Assembly (NCBI GenBank): GCA_001800315.1
Contig: MGVE01000006.1
Coordinates: forward strand, 1 to 64,000
Reading direction: 5' to 3'
DNA length: 64,000 nt
From: Elusimicrobia bacterium RIFOXYA2_FULL_47_53
Lineage (GTDB): Bacteria > Elusimicrobiota > Endomicrobiia > Endomicrobiales > XYA2-FULL-47-53
Shown: positions 32,984 to 61,977 of the stretch, in pieces
Numbering within the stretch: position 1 is the stretch's first letter
How the letters are laid out: each line of letters begins with the position of its first letter
Made by a program: the position numbers and the translations under genes
Notes under the pieces: generated by a model
Databases searched by the model: none
Told to the model about the DNA's origin: nothing
The model's input: the letters and a program-made list of their open reading frames with translations, nothing else

Positions 32984-33287
32984 ACGCCCCCCCCTCGCAT
33001 TTATGATAAAATTCAGGTTATTATTACCTAATATTTTGTTTATTGTCAATATTAACCGGAGCCCAGCATCCTCAGATAGCGCCCAGGGCTTCGCCAGAAA
33101 GGTAAAGTCACCCTGAACGAAGTGAAGGGGCTCGTTTTTCATCCGACGACGAGATTCTTCGTCCGCCACAGCGGACCCAGAATGACCACACCACGGGGCG
33201 CGGGGTTGAGTTCGCAACCGCCGAAAATCACACCGGCAATTGCATCACCGGCGGCAAGGCGAAAAGCTATCAAGGAATTCAGCTTGC
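32984..33287. repeat. Intergenic stretch holding a dispersed repeat
   Basis: No real gene. Positions about 33068-33185 match, in inverted orientation and with scattered changes, positions about 46434-46561 (shared words include CACCCTGAACGAAGTGAAGG, CTCGTTTTTCATCC and ACGAGATTCTTCGTCCGC). Short reading frames here are by-products of the repeat. Confidence 0.75.
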
Positions 33288-45873: not shown

Positions 45874-46773
45874 ATTTTCCTCTTTTCCTCTTCTAATTCT
45901 CCTGCCAGGCGGCGCTGTCATTACGATTTTAACTTTCTTTGGATGCGCAAAGAACGATAATAAAGAAGGGTGACGCCTCACCATCTCGGCCCAGGCCGCC
46001 ATCCCAGAACCGTTCTGTCGGGAATCCAGAACAATGACATTTTGTTAATGACTCAAAGAAGTGGATCCCAGACTACTGCCTCTGGGCTGACGACACAGAA
46101 AAAGTCTGTCATTGCGAGGAATGAAGCAATCTCGCAGTTAAATGGTTTTGTAGCTGCGCAGCTTGCTGCGCGTTCCGTAAAGCGTCGTCATTCCAGAGAG
46201 TTTCTGCCTGGAATCCATCAAGGCCTGTCATCCCTGTAGTTGCAGTGCGGCGAATAAGCCGCACAAGCTTGCAACGGGTGCGAGATGTGAGCACACACAG
46301 GGATCCAGTAAAACCACTGGATACCAGCTTCCGCTGGTATGACGACACGAAGAAGTTCGCCGTTCACTTAAAACTTAATACTTACAACTTATAACTTAAA
46401 ATATTCTGTCTGGAATCCGCAAACGCCGTCGTTCTGAGTCCGCTGTTGCGGACGAAGAATCTCGTCGTTGGATGAAAAACGAGACCCTTCACTTCGTTCA
46501 GGGTGACCTTAAATGTCTGGAAAAATCTTTCACAGTCAGGTCCGGGCTCTATCTGAGGATTTATCTCCACCCACGCAAGCGAGCAAAAGTTTTCGCAACC
46601 GGTCTTGATGCTGCGACATAATATAATATGTTAACCTTCTGCCTTCCACCCGGCGAAGGAATGTTTTCTGCGCAGACCTTGAGACCGCGACTTACGCTTC
46701 AGGGAGCGGTCTCACGGAGCCGGCAGCAAGTCTATGCCGGCGTTCTGCAAGAAAACAATTCCGGAGCGACATC
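45874..46773. repeat. Gene-free region packed with dispersed palindromic repeats
   Basis: No real gene in 900 bases. It is a mosaic of repeat units: a CTTTGGATGCGCAAAG hairpin word at about 45937-45952 (also at 54365-54380, inverted); a CATTGCGAGG-GAAGCAATCTCGC unit near 46109-46136 (related to units inside batD); an ATACCAGC/GCTGGTAT hairpin at 46321-46340 followed by an ACTTA-rich tail to 46400 (repeated at 61877-61955); and a unit at about 46434-46561 repeated inverted near 33068-33185. Two more hairpins, GAGACCGC/GCGGTCTC (46681-46713) and GCCGGC/GCCGGC (46719-46741), stand just before the clpB promoter. Confidence 0.8.
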
Positions 46774-46856: not shown

Positions 46857-49463
46857 ATGAATCCGAATAAGTTTACTAATAAAGCTCAGGAAGCCCTTGT
46901 TGAAATGCAGAATATCGCGGGCGAATACCAGCACCAGGAACTGGCCGCGGAACATCTGCTGTTGGCCCTTCTCAAACAGCAGGAAGGCGTAGTTTCCGCG
47001 ATAATAAAGAAAATCATACCTCAGAGCCAGTCGGGACAAGAACCCCAAAAACATCTTCAGCGGCAGATTGAAAGCGACCTGGCCAAAAGGCCCAAAATCT
47101 CTGGCGGCAGTTTTTATCTTTCCCCCTCGGTAAATAAAATATTTTCGCTTTCAGAAAAAGAAGCAAAAAACCTCAAGGACGAATTCGTCTCAACCGAGCA
47201 TATTCTCCTGGGCATTGTTGAAGAGGCTTCCTCCGCGGCCGCGGCCCTGCTTGTTAAATCCGGCGTTACAAAAGATAAAATCCTTCAGAGCCTTGTGGAA
47301 ATAAGGGGCTCTCACAGGATCACCGACCAGAACCCCGAAGACAAATATCAGGCTCTAGAAAAATATTCCAGGGACTTAACCGACCTGGCGCGCAAGGGCA
47401 AGCTGGACCCCGTTATAGGAAGGGACGAAGAAATAAGGCGGACGGTCCAGGTGCTCTCCCGCAGGACAAAAAACAATCCGGTACTCATAGGCGAACCGGG
47501 AGTCGGCAAAACAGCCATTGTTGAGGGCCTGGCCCAGCGCATAGTTTCCGGCGACATACCTGAAACCCTGAAAGATAAAAAGGTCATAGCGCTTGACTTA
47601 GGCTCGCTTATAGCGGGCGCCAAATACCGCGGCGAATTTGAAGACCGCCTCAAAGCCGTGCTGAAAGAAATTAATTCCTCCTCAGGCAAAATAATTCTGT
47701 TTATTGACGAACTGCACACCATTGTAGGGGCCGGAGCCGCCGAAGGCGCTGTTGACGCAGCCAATATGCTTAAGCCCATGCTTGCCCGCGGAGAACTTAG
47801 AATGGTCGGGGCGACCACGCTTGATGAATACCGCAAGCACATTGAAAAAGACGCCGCTCTTGAGCGCAGGTTCCAGACCATATATATAGGTGAACCTTCT
47901 GTTGAAGACACCATAGCTATTTTGCGCGGTTTGAAAGAAAAATACGAGGTTCATCACGGAGTAAAAATACGCGATACCGCCCTGGTAGCCGCGGCGACCC
48001 TGAGCTACCGCTACATATCCGACCGATTTCTCCCCGACAAGGCGATTGACCTCATTGACGAGGCCGCCAGCAAACTGCGGATTGAAATTGATTCCATGCC
48101 GGCCGAGCTTGACGAAGTTGAACGCCGCTTAAGACAGCTGGAGATTGAAAGGCAGGCCGTTAAAAAGGAAACAGACTCCGCTTCCAAAACCAGGCTGGCG
48201 GCGATGGAAAAAGAAATAGAAAACTTAAAAGAGTCTTCCTCTCATATGAAGGCCCAGTGGCAGGAACAGAAAGGGGCGATCTCAGAAATAAGGAAACTCA
48301 AAGAGAAACTGGAAGAATATAAAATAGAGGAACAGCACGCCGAGCGCCGCGGAAGCCTTGACCGGGCCGCCGAGATTCGCTACGGCAAAATACCCGAAAC
48401 CCAGAAAGGCATAGACGAGGCCGGCAAACAACTCGCCAAACTTCAAAAAGAAAAACAGATACTCAAGGAAGAGGTAGAGGAAGAGGATATCGCCCGCGTA
48501 GTCAGCAAGTGGACCGGCATTCCCGTTTCCAAAATGCTTGAAGGCGAGATGGCAAAACTGCTCAAAATGGAGGAGCGCCTGCACGACCGGGTTGTAGGGC
48601 AGGAAGAAGCCATTTCAGCGGTTGCCAACGCGGTGCGCCGTTCCCGTTCCGGGCTCTCCGATCCCAACAGGCCCATCGGCTCGTTTATTTTCCTGGGCCC
48701 CACGGGCGTCGGCAAGACCGAGCTGGCCAAAGCGCTGGCGGAATTTCTTTTTGACAACGAAAAAAACTTAGTGCGCATTGATATGTCGGAGTATATGGAA
48801 AAACACTCGGTTTCAAGGCTGCTTGGAGCGCCTCCGGGATATATTGGTTTTGAAGAGGGCGGCCAGCTTACGGAATCGGTAAGAAGAAGGCCCTATTCCG
48901 TGGTCTTGTTTGACGAGATAGAAAAAGCGCACCCGGAAGTTTTCAATGTAATGCTCCAGATACTTGACGACGGCAGGCTGACCGACGGGCAGGGGCGCAC
49001 GGTAGATTTCAAGAATACTGTTATAATAATGACTTCAAATGTGGGATCAAACTTTATTCAGGAAAGCACTCAGTACGAGGAAATGAAAAAGAGGGTAAGC
49101 GAGGCCCTGCAAGCCCACTTCCGCCCGGAATTCCTTAACCGCATAGATGAAATTATTATTTTCCAAAGGCTTTCCGCCGGCGAACTGCAGGGCATAATTG
49201 ACATTCAGCTTGAACAGCTTGAAAAACGGCTCTCGGACAAAAAGATTGTCATAGAGCTGTCCAAAAACGCCAGAAACCATCTCGCGAAAACCGGTTATGA
49301 CCCGGCGTTCGGAGCCAGGCCGCTTAAGCGCACGATTCAGAACCTGGTGCTTAACCCGCTATCCAGCAGGATAATCGCGGGAGAGTTTAAAGAGGGCGAC
49401 AAAGTGGTGATAGATTTTTCGCGCAGCGACAACAAGGAAGAATTGGTCTTTAAGAAAGCCTGA
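46857..49463 (+). CDS. clpB: ATP-dependent disaggregase ClpB
   Basis: An 868-residue Hsp100 chaperone. The order is standard: N-terminal Clp_N repeats (to about 145), NBD1 with Walker A GEPGVGKT at 212-219, a long coiled-coil middle domain (about 395-525) that separates ClpB from ClpA/C, and NBD2 with GPTGVGKT at 614-621. It rescues aggregated proteins with DnaK. The start at 46857 follows CTGGAGGC; an in-frame ATG at 46818 lies within the operator region and is unlikely. Confidence 0.96.
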
Positions 49464-49470
49464 AAGCGGG

Positions 49471-49508
49471 CAAAAAAATAACAGCCCTTTGAATAAAGAG
49501 CTGTTATT
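49471..49508 (-). terminator. Intrinsic terminator of the small basic-protein gene
   Basis: On the minus strand AATAACAGC (49508-49500) pairs perfectly with GCTGTTATT (49485-49477), with an inner 4-bp stem, and runs into seven T. It begins 21 bases after the small gene's stop codon. On the plus strand the same hairpin is followed by A, not T, so it is aimed at the minus strand. Confidence 0.8.
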
Positions 49509-49529
49509 AAAAAATATATAAGAGATTAA

Positions 49530-49625
49530 TTAGGATTTGCGCCCGGCCGCTTTTTTGTTTGTAAGCTGCCTCTTGTTTCTGTTTCTGATCTGGCGCCTGC
49601 GCCTTTTTTGTTTGGACTTGCTCAT
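49530..49625 (-). CDS. 31-residue highly basic protein, unknown (possibly ribosome-associated)
   Basis: ATG at 49625, stop TAA at 49530. The product has 31 residues, about half Lys or Arg (it opens MSKSKQKRRRRQIRNRNKRQ), and no hydrophobic core. Support is positional: GGGAGGTGA lies 5 bases before the ATG, a promoter with 17-base spacing lies just upstream, and a terminator with a T run lies just downstream. The composition recalls tiny rRNA-binding proteins such as bTHX, but I do not recognise the sequence. Confidence 0.75.
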   Translation of the reverse strand: MSKSKQKRRRRQIRNRNKRQLTNKKAAGRKS

Positions 49626-49648
49626 CGGTTTCACCTCCCGTTAACAGG

Positions 49649-49677
49649 AGTTTATCAAAAAATACCGGAAACGGCAA
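49649..49677 (-). promoter_or_regulatory. Promoter of the small basic-protein gene
   Basis: Minus strand: -35 TTGCCG (49672-49677), 17-base spacer, -10 TAAACT (49649-49654). The start near 49642 gives a 17-base leader that just contains the ribosome site. Confidence 0.55.
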
Positions 49678-49767: not shown

Positions 49768-51717
49768 ATGAATATAACAAGAAAGATTATTTCAAGCCAC
49801 ATGGTATCAGGATCAATGAAGGCCGGCAGCGAGGTCGGGCTTAGGATTGACCAGACTCTGACCCAGGACGCGACCGGCACCATGGCCTACCTGCAGTTTG
49901 AAGCCATGGGAGTTAAAAAAGTCCGCACAAAACTTTCCGTAAGCTATGTGGACCACAACACTCTTCAAACCGGGTTTGAAAACGCCGATGACCACCGTTT
50001 TCTTCAGTCAATAGCCGAAAAATACGGCATATATTTTTCTCCGGCCGGCAACGGCATTTGCCACCAGCTGCACCTGGAACGCTTCGGCGTGCCCGGCCAG
50101 ACTCTTATAGGCTCGGATTCCCACACCCCCACGGCCGGAGGCCTCGGGATGCTTTCTTTCGGGGCGGGCGGGCTTGATGTGGCCTGCGCGATGGCTGGAG
50201 AACCGTTTTATATAACGATGCCGAAAGTCGTTAAGGTCAACCTAACGGGCAGGCTGCGCCCCTGGGTAAGCGCCAAGGATATAATCCTGGAACTGCTCAG
50301 GCGCCTGAGCGTAAAAGGCGGCAGAGGCAAAGTCTTTGAATTCGCCGGCCCCGGCGTGCTGACGCTGTCGGTTCCGGAACGGGCGACCATAACAAATATG
50401 GGCACCGAACTTGGAGCGACCACCTCAATTTTTCCGTCCGATAATATTACCAAAGCTTTTTTGAAACAGCAGAAGCGCGAAAAATCCTGGAAAGAAATAG
50501 TTCCCTCTAAAGACGCGGAATACGACGAGGTAATTGAAATAGATTTAAACGCTCTGGAGCCTCTTATAGCGCTTCCTCACAGCCCGGACAATGTAAGAAC
50601 CGTTAAAGCCGTAGAGGATACGCCCGTCAACCAGGTCGCGATAGGCTCCTGCACAAATTCCTCGCTCGCGGACCTGCTTCTTGTGTCAAAAACTTTGAAA
50701 AATAAAAAAATAAATAAAAATGTCAGCCTGGTTATTTCCCCGGGCTCGCGGCAGGTTGTTACCATGCTCGCGAAATCAGGGGCTCTTTCGGACCTGATAG
50801 CCTCGGGAGCGAGAATCCTTGAGAATTCCTGCGGCCCCTGCATAGGCATGGGCCAGTCGCCTTCCAGCGGAGCTGTTTCGCTCAGGACTTTTAACAGAAA
50901 CTTTGAAGGAAGGAGCGGCACAAAGGACGCGAAAGTCTACCTCTGTTCGCCCGAAGTCGCGGTCGCGGCCGCTCTTTTCGGAAAGATCACCCTTCCGTCT
51001 AAAATCGGGGCAAAACCAAAAGTCAAACTTCCGGCAAAACTTGATATTGACGAGAAAATGTTTTTTGCGCCATCAAAGAATCCCGGGAAGACGGAGATAC
51101 TCCGCGGCCCCAACATTAAACCGCTCCCCGTTTTTGAACCGCTTCCGGAAAAATTTTCAGCCGGGGTTGTATTAATGGTCGGAGACAACATTACGACGGA
51201 TCATATTATGCCGGCAGGGTCAAAAATTCTTCCGCTGCGTTCAAATCTGCCGGCCATATCGGAATACGCGTTTTCGGCGGTTGACAGGGAATTCGTAAGC
51301 CGGGCAAAGGCTTCCGGCTCGGGAGTCATAGCCGCCGGCGAAAATTACGGTCAGGGTTCATCGCGCGAACACGCGGCCCTGGCTCCCAGGTATCTCGGGG
51401 TACGCGCCGTTATCGCGAAATCCTTCGCGAGAATACATCTCGCGAACCTGATAAATTTCGGCATAATACCGTTCACATTTAAAACGGCTTCCGATTACGA
51501 CAAGCTTTCTTTGGGCGACAGGATTGAAATAAACTCCGCGGCCAAAGCTTTAGGCGGCGGCTCAAACGAACTCTCGGCGCTGGTCCGCTCGGCCGACGGC
51601 TCGCTGAAATACGAGATGGCTCTCAACTTTGACCTTACTCAAAGGCAAAAGTCTATTATTTTCGCCGGCGGACTGCTAAACTGGATAAAATCCGGTTCAA
51701 AAAACGCCTCCGAATAA
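49768..51717 (+). CDS. acnA: Aconitate hydratase
   Basis: A 649-residue enzyme that isomerises citrate to isocitrate. The [4Fe-4S] ligands are Cys295 (GSCTNSS), Cys355 and Cys358 (NSCGPCIGMG). Substrate-binding blocks SDSHTPTAGGLGMLSFG and the C-terminal swivel-domain GENYGQGSSREHAALAPR are present. At about 650 residues it is of the short mitochondrial-like or LeuC-like branch common in anaerobes, so homoaconitase-type activity cannot be excluded. proA follows by 23 bases. The symbol is by function, not subfamily. Confidence 0.92.
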   Translation: MNITRKIISSHMVSGSMKAGSEVGLRIDQTLTQDATGTMAYLQFEAMGVKKVRTKLSVSYVDHNTLQTGFENADDHRFLQSIAEKYGIYFSPAGNGICHQLHLERFGVPGQTLIGSDSHTPTAGGLGMLSFGAGGLDVACAMAGEPFYITMPKVVKVNLTGRLRPWVSAKDIILELLRRLSVKGGRGKVFEFAGPGVLTLSVPERATITNMGTELGATTSIFPSDNITKAFLKQQKREKSWKEIVPSKDAEYDEVIEIDLNALEPLIALPHSPDNVRTVKAVEDTPVNQVAIGSCTNSSLADLLLVSKTLKNKKINKNVSLVISPGSRQVVTMLAKSGALSDLIASGARILENSCGPCIGMGQSPSSGAVSLRTFNRNFEGRSGTKDAKVYLCSPEVAVAAALFGKITLPSKIGAKPKVKLPAKLDIDEKMFFAPSKNPGKTEILRGPNIKPLPVFEPLPEKFSAGVVLMVGDNITTDHIMPAGSKILPLRSNLPAISEYAFSAVDREFVSRAKASGSGVIAAGENYGQGSSREHAALAPRYLGVRAVIAKSFARIHLANLINFGIIPFTFKTASDYDKLSLGDRIEINSAAKALGGGSNELSALVRSADGSLKYEMALNFDLTQRQKSIIFAGGLLNWIKSGSKNASE

Positions 51718-58930: not shown

Positions 58931-60922
58931 ATGATAGCGGCAACAACGATGTTTAAACCATTAACAAAATACCTACTTAAGTCAGTTGAAAAAACTCTTT
59001 CGGGCCGTCTTTGCCTGTCCGCCAAAGCTTTTGTGGAGGGCGAGGAGTGCAATGACGAAGCAATCTCGCGGTTTATGACGGAGAGTCAAGATTGCTTCAC
59101 CCTGCGGGTTCGCAATGACAGGGCATTACTAAGGGTTTTTCATCTGACTCTTCTTTCATTATTGCTGCTGTTTGCCTGCGGCGGCGTTTTCGCCCAGGAT
59201 ATAGCAGTTACGGCAAGCGTTAACAGCAATGTCATTGCCATCAATGAACAGCTTGAGTTAAATATTATTATATCCGGTAACGCCTCCGATCTGCCAAACC
59301 TGGAACTGCCGCAGATAGCAAACTTCACGGCCTATTCGGCCGGCAGATCCCAGAACACTTCAATAATAAACGGGCAGGTCTCAAGCTCGGTTGCCTTCAG
59401 GTACGCTTTGGTTCCGCAAAACACCGGCAAATTCACCATCCCGGCCCTCAGCTTTCAATACAAAAACAATACCTACGCGACCCAGCCGGTAAATGTTGAG
59501 GTTGTGGCGGCATCGTCCTCCGGACCGCAGGCGGCCAACGCCGCTCCGGGCGCAGCCCGGAGAAACGGCAAAGATATATTTATAACGGCCTCCGTGGATA
59601 AAACTTCGGCCTATGTAAACGAGCAGATAACCTATACTTTCAAGTTTTTTCGCAGAATCCGCCTGCTTTCCAACCCCCAGTACTCTCCTCCGGATTTTTC
59701 AGGCTTCTGGACGGAAGATACTCCGCCAAAAAATTATTTCGCGGCATACGAAGGCTCACAGTACCAGATCTCGGAAATTAAAATATTTTTGTTCGCGACC
59801 AAACCGGGCAAATTCACTATTTCCCCAGCGACGCTTCAGTGCAGTGTGGAGGATTTCAGCCCTGCCGACATCTCAGCTGACAGCTTTTTTATGAATTTCT
59901 TCTCGGGCGGGAAGGCCCAGACGCTCCGCACCAACCCTGTCACGGTTTCCATAAAACCCCTTCCGGAAAACGGCAGGCCTGACGATTTTACCGGTTCCGT
60001 GGGCCGCTACGAGCTTTCGGCGGAGCTGGACAGAAAAACCGCGGCGGTGAACGACCCGGTAACGCTTTCTCTGAAAGTCTCGGGATCGGGCAATATTAAA
60101 ACCATTTCCGAACCGAAGCTTCCCTCGTGGCCGGATTTCAGAAAGTACGAAACCGTAAGCTCGCTTAACATCGCGAAGGATAAAGGAGAGGTGAGCGGAT
60201 CCAAAACATTCAAAACTGTTATTGTGCCCATGACTCCGGGCGACAAGAATCTCTCGGGACTTTCTTTTTCATTTTTTGACCCAGCAAAAAATAAGTATAT
60301 AAAACTCCGGCTCCCGGCGCTTTCGCTTTCCGTAAAACCGGGGGCTCCGGGCCAGGCCCCCCAGAACAGCCAGCCGGCGGAAAGCACGGTAAAACTCGTA
60401 AACCGTGATATACGCTACCTTAAAACTCCGGCTAAGTGGCATGAGTACTCAGGCCCGCTTTATAAAAATCCCTGGTTTATTATTTTAAATATTTTACCTC
60501 TGCTCGGCCTGGCGGCGGCATTTTTTACGGCTTCATACCGCGACAAGCTCAGCGGTGATACGGCGCTCGCCCGCCACCTGGGGGCTTCGGCGGCCGCGAG
60601 AAAATATTTAAAGCAGGCCGCGAGCCTGCTGTCGGAGGACAAATCGGGCGAGTTTTACTGCGCCATATCAAGGGCGCTCCTTGAATACATCGCCGACAAG
60701 ACAAACCTTTCGGCCGAAGGGCTTACAGGTGCCGCAATTACGGATATTCTTTCTAAAAGAAATATCAGCGCCGAAACTATAAATATTATTATCACCGTGC
60801 TTGGCGAATGCGATCTGGTCAGGTTTTCGCCGTCCAGGGTTTCATTGGAAACCATGAGCAAAACTTATGAATCCGCCGGCCGCCTTATAGACATGCTTGA
60901 AAAAGGATTAAAAAAGAAATGA
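58931..60922 (+). CDS. batD: BatD-like protein with a repeat-derived N-terminal extension
   Basis: A 663-residue reading frame. The conserved part begins with a signal peptide near residue 68 (LRVFHLTLLSLLLLFACGGVFAQ) and continues as several immunoglobulin-like beta domains, one transmembrane helix near 528-545, and a cytoplasmic helical tail. The 67 residues ahead of it come from dispersed-repeat DNA: GAAGCAATCT at 59057-59066 faces AGATTGCTTC at 59089-59098. No start codon lies close to the signal peptide and no good ribosome site precedes 58931, so the real start, or whether the gene still works, is open. Confidence 0.85.
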   Translation: MIAATTMFKPLTKYLLKSVEKTLSGRLCLSAKAFVEGEECNDEAISRFMTESQDCFTLRVRNDRALLRVFHLTLLSLLLLFACGGVFAQDIAVTASVNSNVIAINEQLELNIIISGNASDLPNLELPQIANFTAYSAGRSQNTSIINGQVSSSVAFRYALVPQNTGKFTIPALSFQYKNNTYATQPVNVEVVAASSSGPQAANAAPGAARRNGKDIFITASVDKTSAYVNEQITYTFKFFRRIRLLSNPQYSPPDFSGFWTEDTPPKNYFAAYEGSQYQISEIKIFLFATKPGKFTISPATLQCSVEDFSPADISADSFFMNFFSGGKAQTLRTNPVTVSIKPLPENGRPDDFTGSVGRYELSAELDRKTAAVNDPVTLSLKVSGSGNIKTISEPKLPSWPDFRKYETVSSLNIAKDKGEVSGSKTFKTVIVPMTPGDKNLSGLSFSFFDPAKNKYIKLRLPALSLSVKPGAPGQAPQNSQPAESTVKLVNRDIRYLKTPAKWHEYSGPLYKNPWFIILNILPLLGLAAAFFTASYRDKLSGDTALARHLGASAAARKYLKQAASLLSEDKSGEFYCAISRALLEYIADKTNLSAEGLTGAAITDILSKRNISAETINIIITVLGECDLVRFSPSRVSLETMSKTYESAGRLIDMLEKGLKKK

Positions 60923-61659: not shown

Positions 61660-61977
61660 AGCTCCCTGGATTTACGCTTTTGGTATCTTCAGTTTCACAT
61701 ATTTTCTGCTATACAGCGAAATCTCATTCCTTGTCAGCCCAAACTTAAAACATTACCCTGTAAAGACTGCCGCTGCCGCGAGTCGGAATGCCAAGCGCCG
61801 TTCACTTACAACTTAAAATGTTCAGTATGAAGTCCATCAAGGCCCTGTGAAAACAGGAATCCAGAAAAACCTCTGGATACCAGCTTCCGCTGGTATGACG
61901 ACACGGAGAAGTCCGCCGTTCACTTACAACTTAAAACTTACAACTTATAACTTAATATTTAGAGAAATGCTTTGATA
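61660..61977. repeat. Intergenic repeat block, copy of a unit at 46.2-46.4 kb
   Basis: No gene. The CCATCAAGGCC word near 61832, the hairpin ATACCAGC-TTCC-GCTGGTAT at 61877-61896, TATGACGACAC and the ACTTA-rich tail (to about 61955) occur in the same order and orientation at about 46214-46400. Confidence 0.8.

Follow-up and report, generated by a model that had tools for sequence, protein, structure and literature searches.

Sequence evidence for an uncatalogued family of small basic proteins in Elusimicrobiota, with a plausible role at the ribosome

Background

Between clpB and the aconitase gene, both on the plus strand, the window (the whole 64-kb stretch of DNA that was analysed) contains an open reading frame of 31 codons on the minus strand. 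Whether so short a frame is a gene and, if it is, what its product binds are the questions that this locus raises. In the first-pass annotation, made from the sequence of the window, the frame was described as a tiny lysine- and arginine-rich protein with a complete transcription unit, and RNA or ribosome binding was proposed from its composition.

Methods

Homologues were sought in a search set of 341 genomes of the little-studied bacterial phylum Elusimicrobiota with the single sequence and, iteratively, with successive profiles of 8, 16 and 19 rows for the 31-residue family. A separate scan of named genomes used narrow peptide patterns from members of families f28 and f29, and its silence beyond the phylum is not informative. 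Likenesses to known small ribosomal proteins were controlled by comparing hhalign scores with those of column shuffles and by an independent ungapped test, with about eight target sets compared.

Results and discussion

Reading frame and its signals

The features of the locus are as follows.

49530 to 49625, minus strand: gene for the 31-residue basic protein, ATG to TAA, MSKSKQKRRRRQIRNRNKRQLTNKKAAGRKS, identified from sequence, homologues, selection and predicted helix
49631 to 49639, minus strand: Shine-Dalgarno sequence GGGAGGTGA, 5 nt upstream of the ATG
49651 to 49677, minus strand: weak promoter-like TTGCCG-15 nt-GATAAA, 8 of 12 consensus matches, short spacer
49472 to 49508, minus strand: intrinsic terminator, 14-bp stem (49508-49477), 4-nt loop, then a T run

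Most of the earlier description was borne out at this level. The ATG frame is present on the strand opposite to its neighbours (clpB ends at 49463 and aconitase starts at 49768), lysine and arginine account for 15 of the 31 residues of MSKSKQKRRRRQIRNRNKRQLTNKKAAGRKS (48%), and the Shine-Dalgarno sequence has the nine bases claimed for it. Within the window, GGAGGTGA precedes one ATG only, that of this frame, and is the strongest Shine-Dalgarno before any ATG there. The T-run terminator also stood: its hairpin, which lies less than 60 nt past the stop codon, has a predicted stability of -16.2 kcal/mol (z -6.4) that was equalled by 0 of 200 shuffles, and because a T run follows the stem in the minus direction only, it fits the 31-residue gene and not clpB. 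The claim of a promoter did not hold up, since the sole candidate, TTGCCG-15-GATAAA, is weak and was not reported by a consensus promoter scan of the locus. It is the homologues that place the frame beyond chance, the signals at the locus being insufficient to decide.

The leader could also form a pairing between CUCCUG and CGGGAG across UUAA (49635-49650, minus strand) that would mask part of the Shine-Dalgarno sequence; this hairpin is no stabler than shuffles and is not evident in other leaders of the family.

Homologues and distribution

The single-sequence search of the 341 genomes gave matches in 12 genomes at E <= 0.5, and 7 genomes besides the window's own contributed short frames that share its core and have an evident Shine-Dalgarno sequence. 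Profile searches of the same set converged on 22 genomes at E <= 5e-9 with a gap-free core of 31 columns, below which the scores dropped sharply to one match at 1e-4, judged to be chance, and a remainder above 0.01. Because the searches were iterative, most of the 22 members had themselves gone into the final profile; independent support came from new members that kept turning up with a start codon and a Shine-Dalgarno sequence correctly placed, features that are invisible to the profile. The gene is single copy, and a Shine-Dalgarno-like site was found in 20 of the 21 members with a readable leader. The length of the core is constant, and the C-terminal tail is variable and often glutamine-rich, giving totals of 31 to 75 residues.

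The exception, the homologue in G229 (L099/L122), has no Shine-Dalgarno sequence; a -10-like TTAGAAT lies immediately upstream of its ATG, which suggests a leaderless mRNA. Several candidate matches were rejected: L002, from the same order as the window, is a chance match within a glycosyltransferase-like frame, and the weak matches L076, L078, L079, L081, L133, L136 and L137, together with L116 of G169, were out of frame or unrelated.

The 22 carriers comprise all eight genomes of family f29 that were encountered (G333-G340), one of f28 (G332), five of f10, two each of f11 and f17, one each of f7, f12 and f19, and the window's own genome; the named genomes in which the peptide-pattern scan found counterparts are Elusimicrobia MAGs. 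The gene was not found in G001, which is the sole genome of the same taxonomic family, the nearest sequenced relative and 91% complete, and profile searches gave no convincing member in other families of the same order. When the clpB-aconitase interval of nearby relatives was searched, no such gene was found there, aconitase itself being present in the nearest relatives. The gene may be patchy in occurrence because many lineages lost it, because some acquired it horizontally, or because its sequence has diverged past the reach of the profile.

Coding selection

Among six independent close pairs of homologues, 27, 21 and 58 changes were counted at codon positions 1, 2 and 3, respectively (chi-square p 1.4e-5), and dN/dS was about 0.06-0.23 in the close pairs where dS could be estimated. 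The window gene itself differs from those of G334 and G295 by 22 third-position differences against 11-13 at first and second positions. The first-pass annotation had proposed a search of relatives and had named as contrary evidence a frame that is unconserved there, with changes that ignore codon position. The outcome was the reverse, because the core is conserved in 22 of 341 genomes, ribosome-binding sites accompany it, third-position changes are in excess and dN/dS is low. The shortness of the frame and the weakness of its promoter might have pointed to a frame that is open by chance or to a small non-coding RNA; both are refuted by homology and by the codon-position pattern across the phylum, and their joint probability is now negligible. 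That the frame is a real gene we regard as nearly certain.

On sequence evidence, the gene is real, free-standing and a member of an uncatalogued family of small basic proteins of Elusimicrobiota, which has an ungapped 31-column core, a free-standing short open reading frame, a ribosome-binding site and purifying selection. Searches of Pfam, NCBIfam, PHROGs and PDB sequences gave no convincing match for the window protein or its family; no Pfam or NCBIfam family reached E <= 10 with the window protein, and the PDB sequence search gave no match to any solved ribosomal protein. The earlier suspicion that automatic annotation could miss so short a frame was thus well founded, as it is conserved in 22 genomes yet lies outside present family models.

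Genomic neighbourhood

The window gene diverges from aconitase, on the 5' side of the latter, and in f28 and f29 the small gene and aconitase converge, the former lying on the 3' side of the latter. This adjacency in two lineages may be the ancestral position and is absent in the other lineages examined. It also suggests that the gene might be a local regulator of aconitase, acting in the window genome by way of the divergent leader, for instance, but the neighbours are different in members from f7, f10, f11, f12, f17 and f19, and the nearest relatives have aconitase without a detected copy of the gene, so that we consider such a regulator extremely improbable. The f10 copies are flanked by a HIT-type gene and a nucleoside phosphorylase gene and lie upstream of grpE and dnaK; the small gene follows a thioredoxin gene in G295 and a phosphate transporter-like gene in G221, and stands beside a ferrochelatase-like gene in G220. 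The variation of context between lineages indicates that the gene is free-standing. Translation genes are not among its neighbours.

Several f29 genomes have a large gene, which we take to resemble a MEMO/AMMECR1 fusion, whose end the small gene overlaps or adjoins (positions 4001-4004 of L139, and likewise L088, L091, L138 and L140). This arrangement suggests translational coupling of the two genes in f29.

Predicted structure and comparison with small ribosomal proteins

AlphaFold2, run with five sequences, gave one uninterrupted helix covering residues 3-30 with a mean pLDDT of 91, a value of limited meaning for a lone basic helix. The predicted helix would carry lysine and arginine on most faces and an apolar stripe near residues 13-17-21, and the conserved non-basic positions of the core include Q12, I13 and L21.

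A precedent for such a protein exists in Borrelia, in which bS22, a protein of about 30 residues and 61% lysine and arginine, was discovered unannotated as a cryo-EM density in a pocket formed by h2, h27, h44 and h45 (PMC10618245). The proteins bS22, mS38 and eL41 occupy a common ribosomal site (PMC10618245, PMC10085706, PMC6582356). The 31-residue protein could have been a fragment or derivative of one of these, or of bTHX or bS20, and each was compared in turn.

The bacterial bS22 proteins (the actinobacterial PF08213 type and that of Flavobacterium and Borrelia), which are grouped with mS38/AURKAIP1, share with the 31-residue protein a length of about 30 residues, a free-standing gene, richness in lysine and arginine and a helical form, but the bS22 helix is bent (PMC10618245) whereas the model obtained here is a single unbroken helix. 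PF08213 (COX24_C, bS22/mS38) scored above its cut-off in 0 of 12 genomes, the window's own included, while a Corynebacterium control matched, and a profile of five sequences of the Flavobacterium/Borrelia type (A5) gave no match in the window's genome. As many as 61 of 200 shuffles were as good as the hhalign likeness to bS22, and the fraction in the ungapped test was 0.70-0.78. A search of the 341 genomes gave no convincing bS22, and the idea that bS22 replaces the family in genomes without the 31-residue gene is therefore unsupported.

For eL41/eS32, of eukaryotes and archaea, the short straight basic helix and a partial likeness over 15 columns (RHQIRQRYLRRLKRK against eL41 RAKWRKKRMRRLKRK) are shared; to our knowledge, there are no bacterial members. 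In none of 20 genomes did PF05162 (eL41/eS32) match at the gene, in a search in which the M. jannaschii control itself was matched only below the cut-off. This is the best of the likenesses: with hhalign, 2 of 200 column shuffles were as good in one comparison and 4 of 120 in another, but the fraction in the ungapped test was 14% (0.136). The two controls thus differ, and the similarity is not robust to composition. The 30S protein bTHX is likewise short, basic and free-standing, and the first 13 residues align with it ungapped, but the 31-residue protein lacks the RGTYGKYRP part and a Pfam or NCBIfam match, and the ungapped fraction was 0.17. A by-eye likeness to the basic N-terminal helix of bS20 was rejected, as a separate bS20 is encoded in 12 of 12 genomes and the hhalign score was below the shuffle mean. 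None of the bS22, eL41 and bTHX likenesses is robust against composition controls, and despite the loose resemblances to eL41 and bTHX a derivation from any of these known proteins is improbable.

The mutual sequence resemblance of bS22 and eL41 is itself not beyond shuffles, so that dissimilarity to either is compatible with a shared role. Although the two share one site, a homology search with eL41 missed the bS22 of C. acnes (PMC10085706).

Proposed function

The family is most likely ribosomal or rRNA-binding, a reading that we hold with some confidence by analogy. It is favoured by the 31-residue length, the high content of basic residues, the single helix, the single copy, the varied neighbours, the conserved core and the very strong Shine-Dalgarno sequence. 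The RNA or ribosome binding put forward at the outset is plausible on composition, length, the prediction of a lone helix and the case of the unannotated Borrelia protein. Counting against a ribosomal role are the lack of a sequence match to any solved ribosomal protein, an eL41 likeness that is not robust, a patchy distribution of a kind seldom expected of a core ribosomal protein, and neighbours that are not translation genes. In the best joint reading, which we judge somewhat more probable than its competitors together, a real family gene encodes a basic helix that would insert into an rRNA groove and act as a small structural protein. The model for this is the small-subunit h27/h44/h45 pocket, with bS22 in bacteria, mS38 in mitochondria and eL41/eS32 in eukaryotes and archaea, and that pocket is our leading, and tentative, guess for the rRNA site. 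It is possible, although rather doubtful, that the protein is ribosomal, specific to the phylum and without sequence kinship to bS22, mS38 and eL41, and that in a subset of Elusimicrobiota lineages its single basic helix has independently come to fill the same pocket near the decoding centre, or else a novel site on the rRNA.

Composition cannot tell rRNA from DNA or other RNA, and the core helix is uniformly basic. A nucleic-acid-binding peptide acting off the ribosome, such as a protamine-like nucleoid compactor or an RNA chaperone, would therefore have the same appearance, and patchiness would be less surprising in an accessory protein than in a core component of the ribosome. The fixed ungapped core, the conserved non-basic positions and the low dN/dS point instead to a specific partner, and protamine-like peptides usually vary freely in order and length; we regard an off-ribosome binder as unlikely. 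A small cationic antimicrobial or toxin-antitoxin peptide is very improbable: a cationic helix and a patchy distribution would be in keeping with it, and C. acnes bS22 is antimicrobial in vitro (PMC10085706), but the protein has no apparent signal peptide, no recurring immunity or antitoxin partner alongside and no phage or PHROG match, and its sequence is strongly conserved.

As this case shows, a small protein can be conserved across a phylum and still have no entry in the curated family libraries, and the 22 sequences provide a ready model for annotation and proteomic searches. Should the protein be ribosomal, one more lineage would have to be accounted for in explaining why short basic helices have repeatedly come to lie on small-subunit rRNA in bacteria, mitochondria and eukaryotes, and why this is confined to some lineages.

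Other features of the window

Dispersed repeats, mostly intergenic or at the start of open reading frames, were observed elsewhere in the window and may constitute a repeat family of this genome. They include a direct pair of 106 nt with 92% identity (46297-46402 and 61853-61958) and an inverted pair of 93 nt with 90% identity (33094-33186 and 46428-46520). The start of the open reading frame at 58931-60922 (plus strand) runs through SQDCFTLRVRNDRALLRVFHL, which resembles a translated repeat more than a native N terminus, and its true start may lie further in.
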